Assembly: GCF_007018905.1 (NCBI RefSeq)
Contig: NZ_CP041402.1
Span: forward strand, 3,646,001 to 3,710,000
DNA from: Tardiphaga sp. vice304
GTDB lineage: Bacteria > Pseudomonadota > Alphaproteobacteria > Rhizobiales > Xanthobacteraceae
Direction: 5' to 3'
DNA: 64,000 nucleotides
The notes beneath the pieces are model-generated. The model was not told the origin of the DNA and did no database searches. It saw only the letters and a program-made list of their open reading frames with translations. Positions 10,180 to 48,746 of the stretch are shown one piece after another. A program made the position numbers and the translations under genes. Each line of letters starts with the position of its first letter. Position 1 is the first letter of the stretch.

Positions 10180-10433
10180 CCTGGCAGATCGCGCTGAGAT
10201 CTGCTTCGAAGCGCTTTATTAGCGGCGATCCCGGGAAGTTGCGCAGGTCGTCGCTGCCGATATGCCATGCCGCCCGGAAATAGTCGTCAACGTCGAATAG
10301 CAGCGCGCTCTCAAGCGACCTGTGCATCAAGCACAACCTGCTGAACCGATGACTTTTGACATTCGCACGGTGACCTGAGCCCCTGAACTTCCGCCAAAAA
10401 TGGGTAGAATCCGTCACCTGAAGGGAGACGGAG

Positions 10434-10697
10434 ATGAAGCAGTCGAGGTTCACGGAAGAGCGGATCATCGCGATCCTGCGGGAGCACGAGGCAGGCTCAA
10501 AGACCGGGGACGTTTGTCGCAAGCACGGGATCAGCAGCGCGACGTTCTACAAATGGAAGGCGAAGTATGGTGGGCTCGATGTGTCGGAGGCCCGCCGCCT
10601 GAAGGTTCTGACCGACGAGAATGCCAAGCTAAAAAAGCTGCTGGCCGAAGCGATGCTCGACAACGCCATGTTGAAGGATCTCAATTCAAAAAAATGA
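10434..10697 (+). CDS. IS3-family transposase OrfA
   Basis: The 87-residue protein contains an N-terminal helix-turn-helix (TEERIIAILREHEAGSKTGD, then HGISSATFYKWKAKYGG) and a leucine-zipper-like C-terminus (LTDENAKLKKLLAEAMLD). It binds the IS ends. It terminates at tga directly after an A7 run (10688-10694), where a -1 slip would fuse it to OrfB. Confidence 0.93.
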   Translation: MKQSRFTEERIIAILREHEAGSKTGDVCRKHGISSATFYKWKAKYGGLDVSEARRLKVLTDENAKLKKLLAEAMLDNAMLKDLNSKK

Positions 10698-11629
10698 TGA
10701 CGCCCGTCGCGAAGCGACAAGCTGTGGCTCACCTTTGTTCAAGTTTTGAGGTCAGCCAGCGGCGGGCGTGTGCGGTCATCGGAGCGGATCGAACCTCGGT
10801 ACGCTATCGCAGCGTGCGGCCCGACGATGTTGTCATTCGCGCGAGGTTGCGCGAACTGGCCAATATCAGACGGCGGTTTGGCTACCGTCGCCTGCTCCTA
10901 CTGTTGCGCATCGATGGCGTTTCGATCAATCACAAGAAGCTGCGGCGTCTGTACGCCGAGGAGCGGCTTCAGGTTCGACGGCGTGGTGGTCGCAAGAAAG
11001 CGCTGGGAACAAGGGCTCCGATGACGTTGCCCCAAGGTCCCAACCATCGCTGGTCGCTCGACTTTGTCAGCGACACGCTGACCGACAGCCGGCGCTTCCG
11101 CATGCTGGCCGTGGTGGACGACTTCACCCGCGAGTGCATCGCATTGGTTGCCGATACGTCGCTCTCGGGCACAAGGGTCGGCCGAGAGCTCGATGCGGTG
11201 ATCGCCCGGCGTGGTCCCCCGCTAACGATCGTCAGCGATAACGGTACCGAATTTACCAGCATGGCCATCTTGCGATGGTCACAGCAGACCAGGATCGAAT
11301 GGCACTACATCGCACCAGGCAAGCCGCAGCAGAACGCATTCGTAGAAAGCTTCAATGGGCGCCTGCGCGACGAACTCCTGAACGAGACGTTGTTCTCGTC
11401 CCTCAACCATGCCCGCGAAGTCCTTGCTGAATGGCAGGACGACTACAACACCGTCCGCCCTCACAGCGCGATCGGCAATCTTCCACCGGCTACCTATGCC
11501 AAGCTCCACGCGTCCGACATGCAACGGGACGGACCGCATGAGCTGATTTGGGGCTCCGCGCCCCGTCCCGTTGCATCACCGAGCCACACAGGCTCAAATG
11601 ATCAAAGGATTCTTCCCATCGCTGGATGA
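10694..11629 (+). CDS. IS3-family transposase OrfB (DDE integrase)
   Basis: The frame enters from the A-run shared with orfA; internal starts at 10694 (atgatg) would permit separate synthesis. DDE residues are seen in WSLDFVSD, SDNGTEF and NAFVESFNGRLRDE, in the family order and spacing, followed by YNTVRPHSAIGNLPP. The reading frame continues to 11629, slightly inside the right inverted repeat. It catalyses copy-out transposition of the element as the OrfAB fusion. Confidence 0.93.
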   Translation: MMTPVAKRQAVAHLCSSFEVSQRRACAVIGADRTSVRYRSVRPDDVVIRARLRELANIRRRFGYRRLLLLLRIDGVSINHKKLRRLYAEERLQVRRRGGRKKALGTRAPMTLPQGPNHRWSLDFVSDTLTDSRRFRMLAVVDDFTRECIALVADTSLSGTRVGRELDAVIARRGPPLTIVSDNGTEFTSMAILRWSQQTRIEWHYIAPGKPQQNAFVESFNGRLRDELLNETLFSSLNHAREVLAEWQDDYNTVRPHSAIGNLPPATYAKLHASDMQRDGPHELIWGSAPRPVASPSHTGSNDQRILPIAG

Positions 11630-11679: not shown

Positions 11680-13011
11680 ATGACTGTCATCATCCAAGAA
11701 GGAAAACACGTGTTATCTCTCGAACTCGGGATCATCACGGTCCTGATCGTCATCAACGGCCTGCTCGCGATGTCCGAGCTGGCGATCGTATCGGCCCGTC
11801 CGGCGCGCCTCGCCGCTCTCGTGGAGAAAGGCGTCAGGGGCTCCCGCCGCGCTCTGGCGCTGGCGTCCGATCCCGGAAAATTCCTTTCCACCGTTCAGAT
11901 AGGCATCACGCTGATCGGCGTGCTGTCCGGCGCGATCTCGGGCGCGACGCTGGGCCAGCGGCTCACCGAGTTCCTGCTCGGCGTCGGCGTCTCCAAGGGC
12001 CTCGCCGATACGCTGGGCGTCGGCATCGTCGTCAGCCTGATCACCTATGCGTCGCTGATCATCGGCGAGCTGGTTCCCAAGCAGATCGCGCTGCGCGATC
12101 CCGAGGCGGTCGCCGTGCGCGTCGCTCCGGCGATGGTGCTGCTGGCGAAGATCTCGCTGCCGCTCGTATGGCTGCTGGATCGTTCCGGCAAGGCATTGCT
12201 GTGGCTGCTCGGCCAGCGCGGCGACGCGGAGGAAAAGATCAGCGAAGACGAAATCCGCTCGCTGGTCACCGAAGCCGAAACGGCGGGTGTGCTGGAACCC
12301 GGCGAGAAGGAAATGATCGCCGGCGTGATGCGGCTCGGCGACCTGCCGGTCGGCGCGGTGATGACGCCGCGCCATGAAGTGGCGATGATCGACCTGGCCG
12401 ACGAGATCGCCGACATTTTCGCGCAGCTGCGCGACAGCAGCCATTCGCGCTTTGCGGTGTTCGACGGCAATCGTGATTCCGCGGTGGGCATCATCCAGGC
12501 CAAGGACCTGCTCGATGTGTATCTGTCCGGCCAGACGCCGGACCTGCGCGCGCTGGTGCGCGAGGCGCCGGTGATCCCGGACTCGGTGGATGCCCGCGAC
12601 GTCGTCGCCATCCTCAGGGACTCGCCGGTACATATGGGCCTCGTGCACGACGAATACGGCGTGTTCCAGGGCGTCGTGACCTCGGCCGATATTCTGGAGT
12701 CGATCGTCGGCTCGTTCCATACCGAGGACGGACCGGCCGAAGCGCCGTACCATCAGCGGGAAGATGGCAGCTATCTGATATCAGGCTGGATGCCGGCGGT
12801 GGACTTTGCCGAGCTGCTCCACATCGAGCTGCCGCTGCAACAGCGACCGTACCAGACCTTCGCGGGGTTCCTGCTGCAGGAATTCGGCAAGATTCCCGAC
12901 GAGGGCGATCACGTCGTGGCGCACGGGTGGCGCTTCGAAGTGATGGACCTCGACGGCCGCCGCATCGACAAGGTGCTGGCGAGCCAGGTGGAAGAAGTTG
13001 CGCTGGGGTAG
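11680..13011 (+). CDS. TlyC/CorC-like membrane protein (CNNM-CBS-CorC domains)
   Basis: 443 residues. An N-terminal DUF21/CNNM domain with three to four helices begins LELGIITVLIVINGLLAMSE; a CBS pair follows (AVMTPRHEVAMIDLADEIAD and DVVAILRDSPVHMGLVHDEY); the C-terminal CorC_HlyC domain is about residues 355-443. The family is linked to Mg/Co efflux and haemolysin-like annotations. ATG 11680 is used; GTG at 11710 with aagaagga is an alternative. The 3' 249 bases are repeated at 20937-21185, so the C-terminal domain may be a transferred allele. The IS element 33 bases upstream likely alters transcription. Confidence 0.9.
   Translation: MTVIIQEGKHVLSLELGIITVLIVINGLLAMSELAIVSARPARLAALVEKGVRGSRRALALASDPGKFLSTVQIGITLIGVLSGAISGATLGQRLTEFLLGVGVSKGLADTLGVGIVVSLITYASLIIGELVPKQIALRDPEAVAVRVAPAMVLLAKISLPLVWLLDRSGKALLWLLGQRGDAEEKISEDEIRSLVTEAETAGVLEPGEKEMIAGVMRLGDLPVGAVMTPRHEVAMIDLADEIADIFAQLRDSSHSRFAVFDGNRDSAVGIIQAKDLLDVYLSGQTPDLRALVREAPVIPDSVDARDVVAILRDSPVHMGLVHDEYGVFQGVVTSADILESIVGSFHTEDGPAEAPYHQREDGSYLISGWMPAVDFAELLHIELPLQQRPYQTFAGFLLQEFGKIPDEGDHVVAHGWRFEVMDLDGRRIDKVLASQVEEVALG
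12763..13011 (+). repeat. Direct repeat, left copy (3' end of TlyC/CorC-like gene)
   Basis: This stretch matches 20937-21185 with a constant offset of 8174 and about 14 mismatches by my reading (about 94% identity). Homology stops at the stop codon on one side and around codon 362 on the other. The two copies bracket the accessory island. Confidence 0.85.
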
Positions 13012-13050: not shown

Positions 13051-13475
13051 TCAAATTGCGCCTTTCGAACTTAGACGTGGAAAGCGATCCATATTCCAAA
13101 GGCTTGCTATCAGTCCTCGCTCATCAGGACTTATAATCTGCGTTCGTGTTAGATCCTCCAAATCGTCCACCCGTTTCAGAATTTCGCGCCTAGCTTCCAG
13201 AGTAAAAGGGCCAAGACCCTCATTTCCGCTTCTTCGCTTCTCCCACCTCTTAGAGGGATTATTTCGAAATTCTGATAGCCAGTCGCGAAAGTTCAGGAAG
13301 GGCAGCAGTTCAAGATGCCCCGCTCTGATCAACTCTTTAGCCGATTTATCCTTTCTCACTACAGTGCAAGTCCAGCAACCGAACCGACCGGATGAACATG
13401 GGGGAGCTTGAGGCGATTTAATGATTGGGCACTCGCCAGAAGCGCCTCGATATAGAGTTTCGAGCGTCGACGGAT
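13051..13475 (-). pseudogene. dndC-like gene, 3' fragment
   Basis: Minus-strand segment encoding the C-terminal 140 residues: DPSTLETLYRGASGECP, then GRFGCWTCTVVRKDKSAKEL and FLNFRDWLSEFRN. These cysteine motifs are those of DndC, the PAPS-reductase-like, [4Fe-4S] protein of DNA phosphorothioation. Stop is at 13051-13053, 40 bases from the convergent TlyC/CorC-like stop. It is cut from the rest of the gene by the IS at 13480-14747; joining at the CTAG duplication restores the frame. Confidence 0.85.
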
Positions 13476-13479
13476 CTAG

Positions 13480-14747
13480 CAGTTTGCTGAAAAATCCCTC
13501 GCGGCGGCGTTCATTTCCTGATTCAATTTGGTCGAGAATCGGTGGAGGTCGGCATGCGCGGGACATTCGAGGATCAAGGCGGGCTGTTTTCATATATCTC
13601 GCCGGATGCGCGGGTGCCCCAGAACCATCCGCTGAGGAAAGTCCGGGCGCTAGTCCGTGATGTGCTGGGCGAGATGAGCCGCAGCTTTTCCAGCCTCTAT
13701 GCGAAGGAAGGTCGTCCGTCGATCCCGCCTGAGCAATTGCTCAGCGCGCTGCTGCTGCAGGTGTTCTATGGCATCCGCTCGGAACGCCAGCTGATGGAGC
13801 AACTGGACTACAATCTATTGTATCGCTGGTTCGTGGGGCTGTCGCCGGACGACCGGGTCTGGAACCCGACCACCTTCACGAAGAACCGCGAGCGACTGCA
13901 GAACGGCGACGTGTTCACGAAGTTCATGACCAGGCTTCTGAACCTCGCCGAGGTCAAGGCGCTGTTGTCGGACGAGCATTTCTCGGTGGACGGCACGCTG
14001 ATCGAAGCCTGGGCTTCCCACAAGAGCTTCCGCCCCAAGGACGGCAGTGACGGCGACGACGGCACCAACTTCCATGGCCAGACCCGCAAAAACGACACCC
14101 ATGCCTCCACCAGCGATCCCGACAGCCGGCTCTACCGCAAGGCCACCGGCCGCGAGGCCAGGCTCTGCTACATGGGCCATGCCACCATGGAGAACCGCAA
14201 TGGTCTGGCGGTCGCCGGGATGGTGACGCATGCCAGCGGCACCGCCGAGCGTCGCGCCGCGGAGAAGATGCTCAAGGCCAAGGCCAAACAGGCCGGCCGG
14301 CGCATCACCGCCGGCGCGGACAAGGCCTATGACACCGCCGATCATGTCGCCAATCTGCGCGCCATCGAGGTGACGCCGCATGTGACGCAGAACAATACAA
14401 TCGGCAAGACCGGCCGCAGCCGTCGCAGCGCGATCGACGAGCGAACCACCCGCCACGAGGGCTATGGTATGTCGCAGACACGGCGCGCGATGATCGAATG
14501 CATCTTCGGATGGGGCAAGCAACACGGCACGATGCGCAAGACCAAACATCGCGGCATCGGCGCTGTCGCCGCCGACTTCATGCTCAACCTAATCGCCTAC
14601 AACCTGATCCGCATTCCAAAACTGCTCGCCGCATAGCTTCCACGCCGTCCAGGCGACGACGCGCGACGCCCGATCAGCTAACTACACCACCATCGCGCCT
14701 GTCCGCTGGAAAGAAAATAGTCGGATTTTGGGTTTTTCAGCGGACTG
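13480..14747 (+). mobile_element. IS5-family element inserted in the dndC-like gene
   Basis: Imperfect terminal repeats cagtttgctgaaaaat (13480-13495) and, as complement, cagtccgctgaaaaac (14732-14747). The 4-base ctag occurs at 13476-13479 and 14748-14751, a typical target duplication. Length is 1268 bases, with a single transposase gene. Confidence 0.92.
13554..14636 (+). CDS. IS5-family transposase
   Basis: Around 360 residues starting MRGTFEDQGGLFSYISPDAR. The DDE signature is visible as FSVDGTLIEAW, GADKAYDTADH and RRAMIECIFGWGK, followed by NLIAYNLIRIPKLLA. A start four codons upstream (GTG 13542) is possible. The protein is full length with no frameshift, so the insertion looks recent. 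It faces opposite to the dndC-like gene it interrupts. Confidence 0.92.
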   Translation: MRGTFEDQGGLFSYISPDARVPQNHPLRKVRALVRDVLGEMSRSFSSLYAKEGRPSIPPEQLLSALLLQVFYGIRSERQLMEQLDYNLLYRWFVGLSPDDRVWNPTTFTKNRERLQNGDVFTKFMTRLLNLAEVKALLSDEHFSVDGTLIEAWASHKSFRPKDGSDGDDGTNFHGQTRKNDTHASTSDPDSRLYRKATGREARLCYMGHATMENRNGLAVAGMVTHASGTAERRAAEKMLKAKAKQAGRRITAGADKAYDTADHVANLRAIEVTPHVTQNNTIGKTGRSRRSAIDERTTRHEGYGMSQTRRAMIECIFGWGKQHGTMRKTKHRGIGAVAADFMLNLIAYNLIRIPKLLAA

Positions 14748-14751
14748 CTAG

Positions 14752-15162
14752 TGATGTCGGCGTCGAAAGACCGAAGATGGCATCCCAGACCTCGGACACA
14801 TTCAGTTCGACAATCGGAAGGAAGAGGTCATAATCCCCCTTACCCTCACGTTGCTTTTGCCAATACAGATTGGCGCTTTTAGCTAGGGAGCGATCCCTTT
14901 GCTGACTCTCGGCAGCGCGTAGGCCGAGTATAACAACTGTATTTGCGGGATCATGGCGCGCAATAAAAGCAGAAACAGGCTTTATTCTCAGACCCGTTGT
15001 GCACCATCGAAAATTATTCGTCGGAGGCGGATAACCCCTGCCAATTATTTTCACAAAGAATCTATCGTGTAGTGGGGACTTAAGTACATGCGTTTTAAAA
15101 CTTGCGGATAATCCACCCAATTCTTGATTTAATTTACCAAAAAGGCCGCGAACGTATGCGTC
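14752..15162 (-). pseudogene. dndC-like gene, middle fragment
   Basis: Minus-strand frame encoding DAYVRGLFGKLNQELGGL, then FFVKIIGRGYPPP, NNFRWCTTGLRIKPV and VVILGLRAAESQQRDRSL. The RWCT and GLRAAES-R motifs are those of PAPS-reductase/DndC proteins. Flanked by IS elements on both sides (TAA duplication at 15163-15165, CTAG duplication at 14748-14751). The DNA is clearly AT-richer than the surrounding chromosome, consistent with foreign origin. Confidence 0.85.
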
Positions 15163-15165
15163 TAA

Positions 15166-16100
15166 GAGGCTGACTGAAAAAGAAGCTGAGTGATTTCAGC
15201 CAGTTGTGATTCCTTCGGATTTGCGAAGATTCGAGGGAGAGCACGATGGTCTGGACTGAAATCACCCGCCGACACTATAGGCGGGCGAGCTTGCGATATG
15301 AAAGCGATACGACGGATGCCGAGTGGTTTGTGATGGAGCCGCTTCTGCCGCCTGCTTCGGCGCTCGGTCGCCCGCGTGCGACAGATATGCGAACGGTGAT
15401 GGATGCGATCCTGTATATTGCGTCGACCGGCTGCCAATGGCGGCAGTTGCCCAAGGATTTCCCGCCCTACTCGACGGTGCAGGGCTATTTCTACGCGTGG
15501 TCGCGCGGCGGACTGTTTGCGTCGCTGAACTACACGCTCGTGATGGCCTCGCGCGAGGCGGCTGGCCGAGAGGCGAGCCCAACGGCCGGAGTGATTGACA
15601 GCCAGTCGGTGAAAACCACGGAAAGCGGCGGCCCCCGGGGCTATGATGCAGGTAAGAAAATCAAGGGCCGCAAGCGCCACATCGTCACCGACACGCAAGG
15701 AAACTTGGTCGGGCTGGTCGTGCACGAAGCCAGCATTCAGGACCGTGATGGTGCCCCGTGCGTTCTTGCTTCGATACGTTATCGCTATCCGTGGCTGCGC
15801 CATATTTTTGCCGATGGTGGCTATGCCGGAGATAAGCTGCGTCAAGCTTTGAAGCGCATCGGCAATTGGACGATAGAAATCATAAAACGATCCGACAGGG
15901 AGCAGGGCTTCGAAATCCTACCGCGCCGATGGGTCGTCGAACGAACGTTCGGATGGCTCGGTCGCTGCCGCAGATTGGCAAAGGACTTCGAGACCACAAT
16001 CGCCAGCGCCGTTGCCTGGGCGTTCGTCGCTCACATTCGCGTCCTTATAAGACGGCTTGCAAAAGCCTGAAATCAAACGAATTCATTATGAGTCAGACTC
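15166..16100 (+). mobile_element. Second IS5-family element inserted in the dndC-like gene
   Basis: Ends gaggctgact (15166-15175) and complement gagtctgact (16091-16100) form short inverted repeats, with taa duplicated at 15163-15165 and 16101-16103. The 935-base length, the TNA-type duplication and the transposase type fit the IS1031/IS427-like part of the IS5 family. It is different from the IS at 13480. Confidence 0.9.
15246..16070 (+). CDS. IS5-family transposase (IS1031/IS427-like)
   Basis: 274 residues in a single frame. Recognisable blocks: TDAEWFVMEPLLPPA near the N-terminus, GCQWRQLPKDFPPYSTVQGY, catalytic AGVIDSQSVKTTE, the KGRKRHIVTDTQG strand, FADGGYAGDK, and RWVVERTFGWLGRCRRLAKD with the final Glu. 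All three acidic residues are intact, so the element could still move. Confidence 0.92.
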   Translation: MVWTEITRRHYRRASLRYESDTTDAEWFVMEPLLPPASALGRPRATDMRTVMDAILYIASTGCQWRQLPKDFPPYSTVQGYFYAWSRGGLFASLNYTLVMASREAAGREASPTAGVIDSQSVKTTESGGPRGYDAGKKIKGRKRHIVTDTQGNLVGLVVHEASIQDRDGAPCVLASIRYRYPWLRHIFADGGYAGDKLRQALKRIGNWTIEIIKRSDREQGFEILPRRWVVERTFGWLGRCRRLAKDFETTIASAVAWAFVAHIRVLIRRLAKA

Positions 16101-16316
16101 TAAGATCGGATTCTCAACTCCAGTATCACAGTATATTACTGTTACGCTAGCCAAGGAAATGCGAGCTTTTTTATAAGCAGCCAAAAATATCTTTAGAGCA
16201 GCAGATGAATCCTTTCCACCTGAGAACGCTAGTATCCAATTAGCTGTCGCACGCTGGCGTATTGCTTCAACCGTGCTATCGATCGCTTTCAACACCGGAT
16301 CATTGGTCAAGAGCAT
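16101..16316 (-). pseudogene. dndC-like gene, 5' fragment
   Basis: Minus-strand start MLLTNDPVLKAIDSTVEA; then WILAFSGGKDSSAALKIF, the PP-loop SGGKDSS that binds ATP in PAPS reductases and DndC, and VTVIYCDTGVENPIL. After the insertion the frame stops within the IS end. With both IS elements and one copy of each target duplication removed, the three pieces total 1056 bases, exactly 352 codons including the stop. Canonical DndC proteins are longer, so this is a short relative. Loss of function is inferred from the interruption. Confidence 0.85.
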
Positions 16317-16818
16317 TGAGTCTTTTTTCTACACTGGTCCTGTATTTCAACCCAATTATCTCAAGCTGCTCTATTGCAATTTCCACTTGCCTTTTAGTAC
16401 AGACGATCGAACCGAATATAGAAACCGCAACAATAATCAAGAAAATCATAGCTGCAGGAAACGCCTCCTCCAACCCTATAAAGTAAAATGCCAACGCCAC
16501 GAGAAAGAAAATCAACGCTATAACCGTCGAGTCCGCACAAGAGGACCAGACAGCACCGTTAGCGTAGGCGAGACTTCTTTTCTGCTTCAAGCTTTCATCT
16601 TGGTCGATAAGGGTGAAAAATAACGACCTTAAATTCTTCCAAGTATAACGCTCGGGTTGGTCGGGATAACCGCTGATTGACACCAGCCCTTGTCTAATAC
16701 TTTCACTAATTTTCTTATGATGCGTTGCGTTTGCCCAACGCCGGAACGGAGTTATATAATCAAGTGCTCCTGGCACAATTATTGAGGGCAGAAATTCAGC
16801 CTTGCTAAAGTCTGGCAA
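16300..16818 (-). CDS. Two-helix membrane protein of unknown family, upstream of dndC-like gene
   Basis: 172 residues if the TTG at 16816-16818 starts it; no ATG with a good ribosome site is seen upstream, and a stop lies about 20 codons further up, so the N-terminus is uncertain. Hydrophobic segments at about 97-114 and 119-139 form a hairpin, followed by a charged, coiled-coil-like tail (QVEIAIEQLEIIGLKYRTSV). It ends 17 bases inside the dndC-like start, implying cotranscription and a shared function. I do not recognise the family. GC is low compared with the host. Confidence 0.6.
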   Translation of the reverse strand: MPDFSKAEFLPSIIVPGALDYITPFRRWANATHHKKISESIRQGLVSISGYPDQPERYTWKNLRSLFFTLIDQDESLKQKRSLAYANGAVWSSCADSTVIALIFFLVALAFYFIGLEEAFPAAMIFLIIVAVSIFGSIVCTKRQVEIAIEQLEIIGLKYRTSVEKRLNALDQ

Positions 16819-16938
16819 TGTGGTGGTCCACCACCCTGTGACCCCCCCCCAATAGCTTAGCGTAAATCAAAATGATGGCTGCCGTGAAGTGCTCCCCAAA
16901 ACTAGGCCAGCCGGAGCTGGAATTTTCCGGGGTTAGGC

Positions 16939-17170
16939 TCATGCCGGCGGGGGCGCCGATGAGCCATTCAACAGCGATATCGGCGCCTTGTTACCGATCG
17001 CGCTATGTGGCCGGACTTCGTTGTAGTCTCTACGCCAATCCTCCATTTTCTGCCGTGCGTCGTCAAGGCTCAGTAACCAGTGCGTGTTCAGGCATTCGCT
17101 TCTGAACTTGCCGTTGAAGGATTCGATGAAGCTGTTGTCCGTCGGCTTGCCTGGCCGCGAGAAGTCCAGC
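16939..17170 (-). pseudogene. IS3-family OrfB, 3' fragment
   Basis: Minus-strand frame LDFSRPGKPTDNSFIESFNG, with the third catalytic Glu in FIESFNG, then DWRRDYNEVRPHSAIGNKAP; stop at 16939-16941. It continues the OrfB frame of 19814-20421 once the IS21-family element and one tccagc duplication are removed. Confidence 0.85.
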
Positions 17171-17309
17171 TGTAGCGCGTCAATCTGGATGGGAAGCGCG
17201 ACAATCAGGATGGCAATTTAGCGGTCGCGGCGTGGGGATGATTGTCGCGGCCTGACGATAACGCAAGTGATAATTGCGTGTCGTGGAGTTGATTGTCGTG
17301 GAGCGACAA

Positions 17310-19768
<2,459 letters not shown>

Positions 19769-19813
19769 TCATCCTGATTGTCGCGGGATTCTCATCCTGA
19801 TTGTCGCGCTACA

Positions 19814-20421
19814 TCCAGCACGACGCCCTTCTGATAAGCCCAGATATCGAGATCGCGAGAGATGAACTCTGATCCCTGGTCGACACGGATGGTTTTCGGA
19901 TAGCCAACGGTCTTGCAGATGCGCTCTAGGGTGACCACGACATCCTCGCCACGATAACTGAAACGCGGATCGACGGCTGGCGAGAAGCGGCTAAAGGTAT
20001 CGACGATCGTCAGCACGCGGATCTTGCGGCCCGTGGCGAGCTGGTCGTGCACGAAGTCCATTGCCCAGGTCTCGTTGACCTGGACAGCATCTGTTCGATC
20101 CTCACGCAGCTTGGCCTTCACGCGACGCTTCGGCGTTTTGTTGCGCAATTGCAGGCTCAACTCCCTATAAAGACGGTAGACACGCTTGACGTTGACGTCC
20201 CAGCCCTCACGCAGCAGTAGGACATGGACCCGGCGATAGCCGTATCTCACCCGCGTCTCGCAGATCTCCCTGATCCGGTGTTTGAGAGCGGCCTGGTCGC
20301 CACGCTTCGACTTGTAGCCGTAAAGTGCGCGATCGATCCGGAGCGTCGAACAGGCCCGCCTGATCGAGACCTTCCAGTCGCCGCACACCCTGTCGACAAG
20401 CTCGCGCTTGCGGTCAGGCCT
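19814..20421 (-). pseudogene. IS3-family OrfB, 5' fragment
   Basis: Minus-strand frame KKTLRPDRKRELVDRVCGDW, with catalytic Asp residues in TWAMDFVHDQL and TIRVDQGSEFISRD; it is broken after AYQKGVVLD by the IS21-family element. Entry is by a -1 slip on the A-run at the end of orfA. The catalytic Glu is on the left fragment (16939-17170). Confidence 0.87.
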
Positions 20422-20687
20422 CAGAGTTTTTTTGAGAGCACATCCTGCAGCATGGCCTTGTCCAGCGACAGGTCAGCTACGATCCGCTTCAGCTTGCCAT
20501 TCTCTTCCTCCAGCTGACGCAAGCGCTTCATCTCCGAGGGCATCAGGCCTGCATACTTCTTCCGCCAGTTGTAAAAAGTAGCCTCGCTGATCCCGGCCTT
20601 GCGGCAGACCTCCGCGACTGCCGAGCCATCTTCCGCCTGCTTCAAAACGAATACGATCTGCGCTTCTGAAAACTTCGATGCCTTCAT
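20421..20687 (-). CDS. IS3-family transposase OrfA
   Basis: 88 residues, starting MKASKFSEAQIVFVLKQAED, with HTH (KAGISEATFYNWRKKYAGL) and a coiled tail (LRQLEEENGKLKRIVADL) ending KAMLQDVLSKKL. It is intact, but its OrfB partner is interrupted, so the element cannot produce OrfAB. An upstream gaggag lies 5-10 bases before ATG. Confidence 0.92.
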   Translation of the reverse strand: MKASKFSEAQIVFVLKQAEDGSAVAEVCRKAGISEATFYNWRKKYAGLMPSEMKRLRQLEEENGKLKRIVADLSLDKAMLQDVLSKKL

Positions 20688-20763
20688 GGAACTCTCCTCG
20701 TCCCCGTCAGGGGATCATAAATGGAAAATTCCAGGTCAAACTGGCCTAATTTGGTGGGGGCAC

Positions 20764-20936
20764 GTCAGACGGCACCAAGAAGCGAGCGAACTTTAGAAAT
20801 GCAAGTGTCATACGTTTTCCTGCTACTGAATTGTATTCGGCACCTCGTAGCGAACATTTTTTACATTGCAATTATAACGATAGCTACACCCATTCGTTAG
20901 GTAGTCTTGCCAGACGGGTCCTTTTTCCTGCACGAC
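20764..20936. other. Right-end remnant of the accessory island
   Basis: About 170 AT-rich bases between the IS3-family end and the second copy of the TlyC/CorC 3' end. No gene is visible. Composition resembles the dndC-like region rather than the host chromosome, so it is probably what remains of the island's right end. Confidence 0.5.
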
Positions 20937-21185
20937 GACGGAAGCTACCTGATCGCGGGCTGGATGCCGGCGGTGGACTTTGCCGAGCTGCTGCACATCG
21001 AGCTGCCGCTGCAACAGCGACCGTACCAGACCTTCGCGGGATTCCTGCTGCAGGAGTTCGGCAAGATCGCCGACGAGGGCGATCACGTCGTGGCGCACGG
21101 TTGGCGCTTCGAAGTGATGGACCTCGACGGCCGCCGCATCGACAAGGTGCTGGCGAGCCAGGCGGAAGAAGTCGCGCTGGGGTAG
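20937..21185 (+). pseudogene. Second copy of the 3' end of the TlyC/CorC-like gene
   Basis: Encodes DGSYLIAGWMPAVDFAELLH to the C-terminal EEVALG and a stop, colinear with residues 362-443 of the full-length protein. Mostly silent or conservative differences (about 14 of 249 bases). It is without promoter or N-terminus. Immediately downstream is a host-type palindromic repeat and parC, so this copy is likely the original chromosomal 3' end displaced by the island. Confidence 0.85.
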
Positions 21186-21292: not shown

Positions 21293-23557
21293 CTACTCCA
21301 TCCCGCGGCCGAACTTGTTCGACTTCGGGAAGCCCTTCGGCGGCAGCCGGCCGGCGTCGGCGCGGTTGCCGCGCCATTCGGCCAGTTCCTTCATGGTCGC
21401 CGAAAACTCGCGGCCGGCGCCGTCGCGCCAGAACAGGCCGGCCTTAGCGGTGAAGGTGGCGACGCCGGAGAGCCCGCCATCCTTGTACTTCTGCAGCCGC
21501 ACGCCGCGGCCGCGGCTCATCTCCGGCACGTCGGCCAGCGGGAAGATCAGCATCTTGCGGTTCTCGCCGATCACCGCAACACTGTCGTTGCCTTCCTCGA
21601 CCACGGTCAGCGCCTTGGCTTCGTTCGGCATGTCGACATTGAGGACCTGCTTGCCCTTGCGGGTGTTGCCGACGCAATCATCCTCATTGACCATGAAGCC
21701 CTGTCCGTCGTGGCTGGCGATCAGGAACTTGCGGCCGCCCTTGTGGACGAACAGCGACACGATGGCGGCGTCGCCTTCCATGTCGATGAACATGCGGATC
21801 GGCTCGCCATGGCCGCGGCCGCCGGGCAGCTTCGACACGTCGAGCGCATAGAAGCGGCCGTTGGTCGCGAGCAGCATCAGCTTCGAGGTGGTCTCGGCGA
21901 AGAATGCCTTGTCGAGCCTGTCGTCGGTCTTGAAGACGAGACCCGATGTATCGGCGACATGGCCCTTCAGCGTGCGCACCCAGCCCTTGTCGGAGATCAC
22001 CACCGTGACCGGCTCGCGCTCGACGAGCGACTCTTCCAATGCAGCGAGATCGTGCTCCGGCGCATCCGCGAACATCGTGCGGCGCTTGCCGAGCGGCGTC
22101 TTCGGCCCGAACATATCGCGGACTTTTCGCACCTGCTCGGCGACCTTGCCCCACTGCTCGGTCTCGGACTTCAGGATCGCGTTGATGCCGCGCAACTCGT
22201 CGCGCAGCTTCTTGTCTTCGGTGCGGATCTCGAATTCTTCCAGCTTGCGCAGGCTGCGCAGCCGCATGTTGAGGATTGCCTCGGCCTGCACGTCCGAAAG
22301 CGTGAAGGTCTTCATCAGCACCGGCTTCGGCTCATCCTCAGAGCGGATGATCTTGATCACCTTGTCGATGTTCAAGTACGCAATCAGATAGCCGCCGAGC
22401 ACTTCGAGACGATGCTCGATCTGGCCCTTGCGATAATTGGAGCGGCGCAGCAAGACGTCGCGCAGATGGTCGAGCCATTCGCGCAGGCATTCGGCGAGGC
22501 CGAGCACCTTCGGAATCTTTCCCTTGACCAGCACGTTGAGGTTCAGCGGGATCTTGCTCTCGAGTTCGGTCAGCCGGAACAGCGATTCCATCACCAGTTC
22601 GGGATCGACCGTCTTCGATTTCGGCTCAATGACGATGCGCACGTCTTCGGCGGATTCGTCGCGGATGTCGCCGAGCAGCGGCAGCTTCTTGTCGTTGAGC
22701 AGTTCGGCGATCTTCTCGATCAGCCGCGACTTCTGCACCAGCCACGGGATCTGCGTGACGACCACGGTCCACATGCCGCGGGCGCCCTCCTCCTTCTCCC
22801 ATTTGGCGCGGGTGCGGAACGAGCCGCGCCCGGTCATGTAGGCCTCGGCGATGCTTTCCTTGCTGTCGACGATGATGCCGCCGGTCGGGAAATCCGGGCC
22901 CTTGACCCAGCGCAGCAGCGCCTTCGACTTGGCGTCCGGCTTCTCGATCAGGTGCAAGGCGGCGTCGCACAGTTCGGCGACATTGTGCGGCGGGATCGAG
23001 GTCGCCATGCCGACGGCGATGCCCTGCGCGCCGTTGGCCAGCAGGTTCGGAAAACCGCCGGGGAGCACCGAGGGCTCCTTGGTCTGGCCGTCGTAATTCG
23101 GCTTCAGCTCGACGGCGTCTTCGTCGATGCCCTCCAGCAGCAGCCGCGCGACGTCGGTCATGCGGGCTTCGGTGTAGCGGTAGGCGGCAGCGCTATCGCC
23201 GTCGATATTGCCGAAGTTGCCCTGGCCGTCGACCAGCGGGTAGCGCGAGGAGAAGTCCTGCGCCAGGCGCACCAGCGCGTCATAGATCGACTGGTCGCCG
23301 TGCGGATGGAACGAGCCCATCACGTCGCCGACGATTTTTGCGGATTTCTTGAACGGCGTGCCGGGGTCGAGCCGTAAGAGCCGCATGCCATACAGGATGC
23401 GGCGGTGCACCGGCTTCAGCCCGTCGCGGGCGTCCGGCAGCGCGCGATGCATGATGGTCGATAGCGCATAAGCGAGATAGCGCTCCTCGAGCGCGTCACG
23501 CAGCTGCACTTCGTGGATCTCAGCCGGCTCTTGCGGCGGAATCAGTCTTTTTCCCAT
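21293..23557 (-). CDS. parC: DNA topoisomerase IV subunit A
   Basis: 754 residues. The N-terminus [20 protein letters not shown] is the type II topoisomerase breakage-reunion domain; the catalytic Tyr is Y128 in AAYRYTEAR. The C-terminal part has degenerate beta-propeller blades (for example [16 protein letters not shown]). With ParE it decatenates daughter chromosomes. ParC rather than GyrA is supported by the length, by [20 protein letters not shown] at the N-terminus, and by the lack of a clear GyrA-box. ParE is not in the window. Confidence 0.92.
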
Positions 23558-43617: not shown

Positions 43618-43709
43618 GGAGCTGTGGCCGAGTGGCTGAAGGCACCGCTTTGCTAAAGCGGCATACCTTTTACCGGGTATCGAGGGTTCGAATCCCTCCG
43701 GCTCCGCCA
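43618..43709 (+). tRNA. tRNA-Ser, anticodon GCT
   Basis: Acceptor ggagctg pairs with cggctcc; the anticodon loop cttt-gct-aaag has anticodon GCT; the long variable arm (gcatacctttta...gggtatc) is that of class II tRNA; the T arm is gagggttcgaatccctc; the discriminator is followed by encoded CCA. Reads Ser codons AGC/AGU. Confidence 0.97.
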
Positions 43710-47357: not shown

Positions 47358-48746
47358 TCACAGCCCGCGGGCGAACGCCTGGAAGATCGGGCTGATGCGC
47401 AGCGTCTCGCGGCCGGCGGCGATGACGTCGTCGACCTGCTGCGGCGGCAACTGGAAGCGGGTCGGCACCGCTTCGAGGGCGGCGGCGCGCGTGGTGTCGA
47501 GCTGGTCGAAGCCGAGGCGACCGATGAAGAAGTTGAGGTCCTTGCAATTCCAGCCGGGCCTTGCCCCCAGCCGCGCTCGCTCCGCGCCGGACAGGCCGCA
47601 GCGCCATTTGATCATCGCCGCCTGCCAGTCCTTCATGGTGCGGTCGAACGCCGAATAGCTGGCGCCGACGCTGGCATCCATCGTGGTGTCCACCGCGGCC
47701 TTCAGCATGTCGACGCCGGTCGGGCCCTCCACGGTGTTGACCCAGTTGCCGGAAATACCGGCCTTGGCGTCGATCACCAGGAACATGGCGCGGCGCACCT
47801 TGACCGCCTGCGCGGCGGTCAGCGGCGCATAGGGATTGTCGGAGGATTCCCGGATGATGGTGAAGCCGGAGATGCCGTAATTGTCGACCAGCCCGCCGTC
47901 CATCAGCTTGATGTAGGGCACCGCCCCGTCACGGTAGCGCAACACGGCCTTGGCATAGGAGGACAGCATCGGCGACGAGTTGCGGTTGGCTGCGGCCTTC
48001 TCGATCCACGGCGGCAGCGGGTCGGCGCAGGTGCCGGGGAAGGCTTTCACCACCGCCGGCGCAAAGGCGATCGGCACGGCGGCAGAAGCCGCGACCGCGC
48101 TCGACAGCGGATACTTGGTGAGATCGCTGCAAATCGAGGAGAACGCCGTGGTGTCGAACACGAACGGCACGTGGTTGTAGATGTCGGAAGCGTTGATCCA
48201 CACCCGCGGCGAGCCGGCGCTGCGGAATTCACCGAAGGTCGCGTTCTTGAACAGATGGGCGTCGAGCCATTTAGTGAACGCCTTGGAGTCGTTGATGCCA
48301 CCGCCGAAGGCGCGGCCGATGGTGTCGAGCGACAGTTCGGTCTGCAGGCCCTCTTCCGCATTCTGCAGCAGGAATTTTTCGCGGAAATCGGCCAGCGCGT
48401 CGCGCTTCTTCAGGCCGAAATAGGCGGCGGTCACCGAACCGCCGGAGACGCCGGAAACGAAATCGATGCGGTCGAGCATCTTGTCCGATGCGCGCGGCAT
48501 CGGCGTGCTCTCCATCTCCTGCAACACGCCGAACGAAAACGCCGCCGCGCGGGTACCGCCGCCGGAGAACGCCAGACCGATCAGCAGGTCGTCCGCAGCT
48601 GCGGCGTCCTCGACCGTCGGTCTTATGTTCTCCGCGACGCCCTCGACGCCGAGCGGCACGTTGATCGGAATGTTGTGCACCGAAGCACAGCCGAGCAGCA
48701 AAGCGGCGGTCGCAACGACGACCCCGAGAGACCCCAACCTGCTCAT
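47358..48746 (-). CDS. Patatin-like phospholipase lipoprotein
   Basis: 462 residues from ATG 48746. Lipobox LLLGC with Cys20. Patatin motifs: oxyanion hole SGGGTRA at 61-67, nucleophile Ser101 in GVSGGS, and the catalytic Asp in LMDGGLVDNYG. A lipid acyl hydrolase tethered to the membrane is expected. It lies between the kinase and gatB on the same strand. A TTG one codon upstream is possible. Substrate unknown. Confidence 0.9.
   Translation of the reverse strand: MSRLGSLGVVVATAALLLGCASVHNIPINVPLGVEGVAENIRPTVEDAAAADDLLIGLAFSGGGTRAAAFSFGVLQEMESTPMPRASDKMLDRIDFVSGVSGGSVTAAYFGLKKRDALADFREKFLLQNAEEGLQTELSLDTIGRAFGGGINDSKAFTKWLDAHLFKNATFGEFRSAGSPRVWINASDIYNHVPFVFDTTAFSSICSDLTKYPLSSAVAASAAVPIAFAPAVVKAFPGTCADPLPPWIEKAAANRNSSPMLSSYAKAVLRYRDGAVPYIKLMDGGLVDNYGISGFTIIRESSDNPYAPLTAAQAVKVRRAMFLVIDAKAGISGNWVNTVEGPTGVDMLKAAVDTTMDASVGASYSAFDRTMKDWQAAMIKWRCGLSGAERARLGARPGWNCKDLNFFIGRLGFDQLDTTRAAALEAVPTRFQLPPQQVDDVIAAGRETLRISPIFQAFARGL

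Follow-up and report, generated by a model that had tools for sequence, protein, structure and literature searches.

On the minus strand of a 64,000-nucleotide stretch of the Tardiphaga sp. vice304 genome (hereafter the window), three separated coding pieces resemble parts of a DndC-type sulfurtransferase. We asked whether these pieces are the remains of one gene, what kind of enzyme that gene encoded, and whether the enzyme worked with a partner.

A DndC-like gene split by two IS elements

As listed in Table 1, each piece carries one of the motifs (SGGKDSS, RWCT, and GCWTC) reported for the locus in the initial annotation. Removal of both IS elements, with one copy each of TAA and CTAG kept, joined the pieces in frame as 72 + 137 + 143 codons, the 352 codons including the stop that had been predicted. 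With the DndC profile TIGR03183, the three pieces gave matches in order (E = 7e-7, 2e-24, and 3e-19, respectively). The protein P0005 (294 residues), encoded on a different contig of 5,678,525 bases that probably belongs to another vice strain, is contiguous and identical to the read-through at both junctions, which shows that empty sites exist and that neither insertion is present in P0005. Given the ordered profile matches and this identity across the junctions, the pieces are not chance resemblances; they are one DndC-like gene split by two IS elements. Close relatives had been proposed as a source of an intact copy, and P0005 is uncut at both window sites, but after NPSK it runs into SLTHNEFV and a stop, the translated outer end of the window's IS5-type element. 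The P0005 gene was thus interrupted by an element of this type as well, at a different position.

Both elements encode DDE transposases as judged by Pfam, and their ends are inverted repeats (GAGGCTGACT / GAGTCTGACT; CAGTTTGCTGAAAAA / CAGTCCGCTGAAAAA). Elsewhere in the genome, the end of the IS5-type element is matched 25 times, at 98 to 100% in 23 cases and at 85 to 86% in two. The names IS5/IS427, IS1182, and IS3 are our own presumptive assignments, made from transposase families and target repeats and not from an IS database.

Table 1. Features of the disrupted module and its borders (window positions)
Feature	Position	Strand	Details
corC 3′ end, left copy of 252-bp direct repeat	12760..13011	+	
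DndC-like gene, C-terminal piece	13051..13479	-	142 codons + stop; GRFGCWTC; Cys226, 237, 244, 247
IS1182-type element	13480..14747	+	transposase 13542-14636; CTAG repeats at 13476-13479 and 14748-14751
DndC-like gene, middle piece	14752..15162	-	137 codons; RWCT (RWCTTGLR), Cys126
IS5-type element	15166..16100	+	transposase 15246-16070; TAA repeats at 15163-15165 and 16101-16103
DndC-like gene, N-terminal piece	16101..16316	-	72 codons; PP-loop SGGKDSS, YCDTGVE
Partner membrane-protein gene, remainder	16300..16892	-	overlaps DndC-like start; 16818-16300 in frame
IS3-type element inside partner gene	16893..20763	-	orfA 20421-20687, part of orfB 19792-20388; ends approximate
IS21-type pair nested in IS3-type element	17310..19750	-	18116-19750 transposase with rve domain; 17310-18119 IstB-like ATPase
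Partner membrane-protein gene, start	20770..20811	-	MTLAFLKFARFLVP; resembles N-termini of family members in two alignments
corC 3′ end, second copy (94%)	20934..21185	+	right border of inserted segment

The pieces adjoin a broken membrane-protein gene. This partner, its breaks, the nested IS21-type pair, and the duplication of the corC tail had all been overlooked in the initial annotation. The frame of the partner gene is broken at a run of nine C (plus strand, 16842-16850). The gene is 98% identical to P0124, a protein of Tardiphaga sp. vice154, in which the frame is open at the nine-C site and the same IS3-end residues as in the window (TPENSSSGWPSFGEHF, twice) precede the membrane part. 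The IS3 insertion therefore probably predates the split from vice154, and the nine-C break is either newer or a homopolymer sequencing error. As described in PMC7701988, four Tardiphaga strains from a Greenland glacier (vice154, 278, 304, and 352) are >99.8% identical at the nucleotide level, and most of their differences are insertions and deletions. Around the IS21-type pair, at 19765-19808 and 17195-17334, a 21-base word (ATTCTCATCCTGATTGTCGCG) recurs, also in near-inverse form; these copies are possibly the multiple terminal repeats of the pair.

These data show the remains of a two-gene operon encoding a four-helix membrane protein of ∼210 residues and then a short DndC-like ATP-pyrophosphatase with YCDTGVE. 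The earlier view that the gene was intact until two recent insertions holds in that both are absent from P0005, but the damage goes beyond them, to three IS insertions, one of which itself carries an IS, and one frame break across the operon. The window's copy of the module should no longer be functional, and a search of the host genome, which is one contig of 5.79 Mb, found no second copy. The repeated breakage fits a benefit that was lost, or a cost incurred once one partner was gone; alternatively, the low-GC segment may simply be a magnet for these IS elements in a GC-rich genome.

We further examined the borders of the segment. The second corC copy lies 107 bases from the 3′ end of a gyrA/parC-type gene (21293-23557). 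corC was present in 16 of 17 other genomes of the genus, and no match to the module pieces was found at the 11 corC loci read in these genomes. At four of the 11 (L161, L163, L169, and L170), no more than ∼200 bases separate corC from the 3′ end of the gyrA/parC-type gene after it, and in L161 the distance is 107 bases, exactly as after the window's second copy. That gene lies ∼600 bases from corC in L171, and no match to it was found within the 1.5-kb flank at six of the loci. The simplest reading is that the segment inserted at the corC 3′ end and duplicated the tail. Repeats also flank the pair elsewhere: in Ruegeria lacuscaerulensis (L032, 8781-11457), perfect 51-bp repeats enclose it in the manner of a small integrated cassette, with the left repeat overlapping the 3′ end of a tRNA-Arg gene and a further copy 2.6 kb downstream, and in L022 it sits between 43-bp repeats (95%). 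Just upstream of corC, the window holds a transposase with an rve integrase core (10400-11629), which we take to be of IS3 type, so that elements of this sort stand on both sides of corC plus the module. Farther along, two tRNA-Ser genes (anticodon GCT; 43618-43709 and 47402-47491, the first alone reaching the Rfam tRNA cut-off) share a strand and are separated by 3.7 kb that include a GC dip at 44 to 46 kb; this stretch is possibly a second island.

Distribution and genomic context of the pair

To define the short DndC beyond the window, 84,980 species genomes were scanned with the peptide patterns [VLI]IYCDTGV or FFV[RK][ILV][IV]GRG; presence of the membrane gene was not a selection criterion. 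The scan returned 37 loci spanning Pseudomonadota, Bacteroidota, Thermodesulfobacteriota, Acidobacteriota, and one Planctomycetota bin. The membrane gene was adjacent at 36 of them: immediately upstream in 33, with an overlap or gap of -112 to +4 nt, downstream in L046, and beside broken (L048) or end-cut (L050) genes. At L047, a run of N beside the gene left the partner not judgeable. L046 (9809-11648, from an Acidobacteriota bin) shows the sole reversed order among the 36, with the enzyme first and the membrane protein second. L050 lies at the end of a contig, and its membrane protein starts much like those of L030 and L032, so that the Planctomycetota label may reflect misbinning. L047, L048, and L050 were excluded from residue and tree counts, and L046 also from GC and repeat counts.

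A profile of the membrane protein gave no match at 17 canonical or other DndC-like loci (1,017 ORFs) or at 89 further DndC-like or PAPS-reductase-like loci (7,707 ORFs), the latter comprising 80 viral loci, many distant (down to E 2e-7) and hence a loose control, and nine loci with 1.5-kb flanks. In a search of 5.8 billion proteins, 5,917 of the 8,000 candidates scored were relatives of the enzyme at E up to 1e-10; the 120 matches listed were mostly ∼350 residues long, and eight of 14 membrane-protein matches lay on a contig of the same size as a listed DndC match. The module is rare, with one marginal match in 384 other genomes of the class, and its distribution is patchy.

The short DndC is also set apart from the Dnd machinery. 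Among the 29 host genomes tested, which cover 29 of the 37 loci, two have a DndD above the curated cut-off and 27 do not, and none over the cut-off was found in the window's own host genome; weak sub-cut-off matches also arise in nine of 14 control genomes. The module thus occurs mostly in genomes without DndD and is independent of DndD in most hosts tested. We read the pair as a horizontally moved two-gene module that is independent of Dnd and stands alone in many bacteria.

At all 33 loci compared, the GC content of the module was lower than that of its flanks. No obvious fixed third gene appeared among the listed neighbors, and many loci had ordinary, changing ones. PADLOC families numbered 71 for 133 near ORFs and 9 for 107 distant ORFs (E 1e-20), with ORFs taken from a simple longest-ORF picker and counts made by family, not per ORF; this control is crude, as at least 14 type I methylase models, with two members each, are among the 25 of the 71 near families shown. 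The neighbors included type I methylases, a ThsB-like TIR protein, mads_2 proteins, ThiF/JAB proteins, and ResIII helicases, and the nearby ORFs gave one match to DndA (a cysteine desulfurase model) and one to SspA, perhaps in the same ORF. Proteins with a ThiF domain lie close upstream of the module at L023 (7343-8764, also with a JAB domain) and L016 (7978-9324).

Features of the enzyme and of the membrane protein

The reference for our alignment of the enzyme was a Salmonella DndC, with its five cysteines numbered as in E. coli B7A DndC; the role and numbering of these residues are taken from PMC12193691. The PP-loop and cysteines 146, 262, 273, 280, and 283 were conserved in every one of the 36 aligned rows (those of 34 loci, the window, and P0005). 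An extra cysteine, Cys63 in YCDTGVE, was found in all 36 rows versus none of 16 others, one of which is gapped there. This residue was in part selected by the scan pattern, but it was still present in the 13 of 34 loci that matched the second pattern only. Among the 120 listed proteins, Cys63 was found in 116 of the 117 that were motif matched, the exception having matched another stretch; a cysteine before DT also occurs at four viral loci.

Four intact members scored 217 to 284 bits, below the NCBI DndC equivalog cut-off of 290.4; the window's own pieces were scored one by one. A quick tree of 52 rows placed 14 other DndCs behind one strongly supported branch (99) and two phage proteins apart, with the TM-paired rows forming one side of a weakly supported branch (29). 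The predicted structure of the enzyme (P0009; mean pLDDT 75.1, with the Cys loop at 221 to 251 under 50) resembles APS reductase and other PP-loop enzymes. The annotation's expectation that this is not an ordinary assimilatory PAPS/APS reductase was supported, as DndC-type profiles matched far better than CysH. The suggestion that the protein belongs to a short, little-studied branch was likewise supported, but shortness alone is not diagnostic, because DndCs of 355 to 379 residues occur beside DndD or AAA-ATPase/DndE genes (L051, L052, and L060). In the predicted E. coli complex, as described in PMC12193691, the DndC C-terminal region binds DndD; this region is missing in the short clade, and also in these three DndCs.

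For the membrane protein, an AlphaFold model of the L015 member was all-helical (mean pLDDT 90.8). Hydropathy peaks near residues 10 to 29, 40 to 60, 130 to 155, and 160 to 185 suggest that many members have four membrane helices, the second and third being ∼70 residues apart; several members have one to three peaks only. The most conserved motif, FYxxIDNDxSLKxKS...NGxxWTSxAD, lies in the stretch between helices 2 and 3 and the start of the third helix. As to SLATT or another named TM effector, Pfam and PADLOC gave scattered weak single-member matches, and PHROGs and NCBIfam gave none for the intact members searched; the PDB gave no clear fold, and named relatives are mostly "hypothetical protein".

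Proposed function and comparison with known systems

The module is rare, patchy, and low in GC, has no fixed third gene, and lies where PADLOC families are denser, and these properties favor a defense reading. We consider the chances evenly balanced that in intact hosts the pair is a defense module of the following kind. A phage or plasmid would be sensed; the soluble enzyme, with ATP at the PP-loop and an Fe-S/cysteine site, would adenylate or thiolate a nucleotide or nucleic-acid target; and the membrane protein, as effector or membrane anchor, would stop growth. More tentatively, the YCDTGVE-type DndC and its four-helix partner may constitute a previously undescribed immune system of two genes. 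It would act independently of DndD, DndE, and any nuclease, with a phosphorothioation-type enzyme recruited as the sensor or signal maker of a membrane effector, and would move as a tiny cassette into gene ends.

The annotation had proposed DNA modification or defense, and it is the modification half that the missing DndD and the constant membrane partner weaken. A minimal phosphorothioation or other DNA-modifying enzyme, in which the short DndC would act with host IscS and unlinked factors while the membrane protein anchors or regulates it, would agree with the retention of all DndC catalytic residues, with DndC being the closest profile, with the equally short DndCs beside DndD-type genes, and with the nearby DndA and SspA matches, but it is unlikely given the hosts without DndD over the cut-off and the sub-cut-off scores of all four intact members tested.

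The fixed order of two overlapping genes, together with the erosion by several IS elements here and the separate break in the P0005 copy, could instead point to a toxin-antitoxin-like or addiction pair, with a toxic membrane protein restrained by the enzyme. This we regard as improbable: it would be unusual for an antitoxin to be a catalytically complete Fe-S ATP-pyrophosphatase, any toxicity of the membrane protein is putative, a low-GC segment offers IS elements more TA-rich targets, and gene order is reversed in L046. PP-loop relatives, which include APS reductase, FAD synthase, TtuA, and GMP synthetase, would suit a metabolic pair acting in sulfur, cofactor, or tRNA thiolation with no defense role (for example, membrane sensing coupled to a thiolating enzyme), but the rarity, patchiness, low GC content, and changing neighbors of the module make this a poor candidate as well.

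Whichever function applies, this is a DndC branch set apart from the Dnd machinery and tied to a constant membrane partner in several phyla. It forms a small, testable module with a membrane half that is nameless in PADLOC 2023, Pfam, NCBIfam, and PHROGs and with a clade-specific cysteine to mutate, and the window offers an example of such a module decaying through IS activity.

Compared with known systems, the phage-borne PAPS-reductase-like proteins phrog_12882 and phrog_424 share the PP-loop domain, but the best viral identity was 36%, and no membrane-partner match was found at the 80 viral loci kept. SspD and BrxP, the PAPS-reductase-like proteins of Ssp and BREX, also share this domain and gave weak matches to single pieces, but their scores were far below those of DndC; of their partners, one SspA match was found in the 25 of 71 near families shown. 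CysH, the APS/PAPS reductase, shares the fold, and the best PDB match of the enzyme model was 2goy (E 3.6e-7, TMt 0.63). The Pfam PAPS_reduct match was, however, weak and confined to piece 1, APS reductase is without two of the DndC cysteines according to PMC12193691, and the short clade, at 351 residues and with a membrane partner, is clearly closer to DndC in sequence. DndC of the DndABCDE phosphorothioation system shares the PP-loop SGGKDS and the five cysteines and gave the best profile matches to the short clade. Most of the Dnd DndCs compared carry ∼80 to 130 C-terminal residues that the short clade is without, and they have an SDTLVE-type motif where the short clade, below the DndC cut-off and mostly in tested hosts where no DndD exceeds its cut-off (27 of 29), has YCDTGVE and an adjoining membrane partner.
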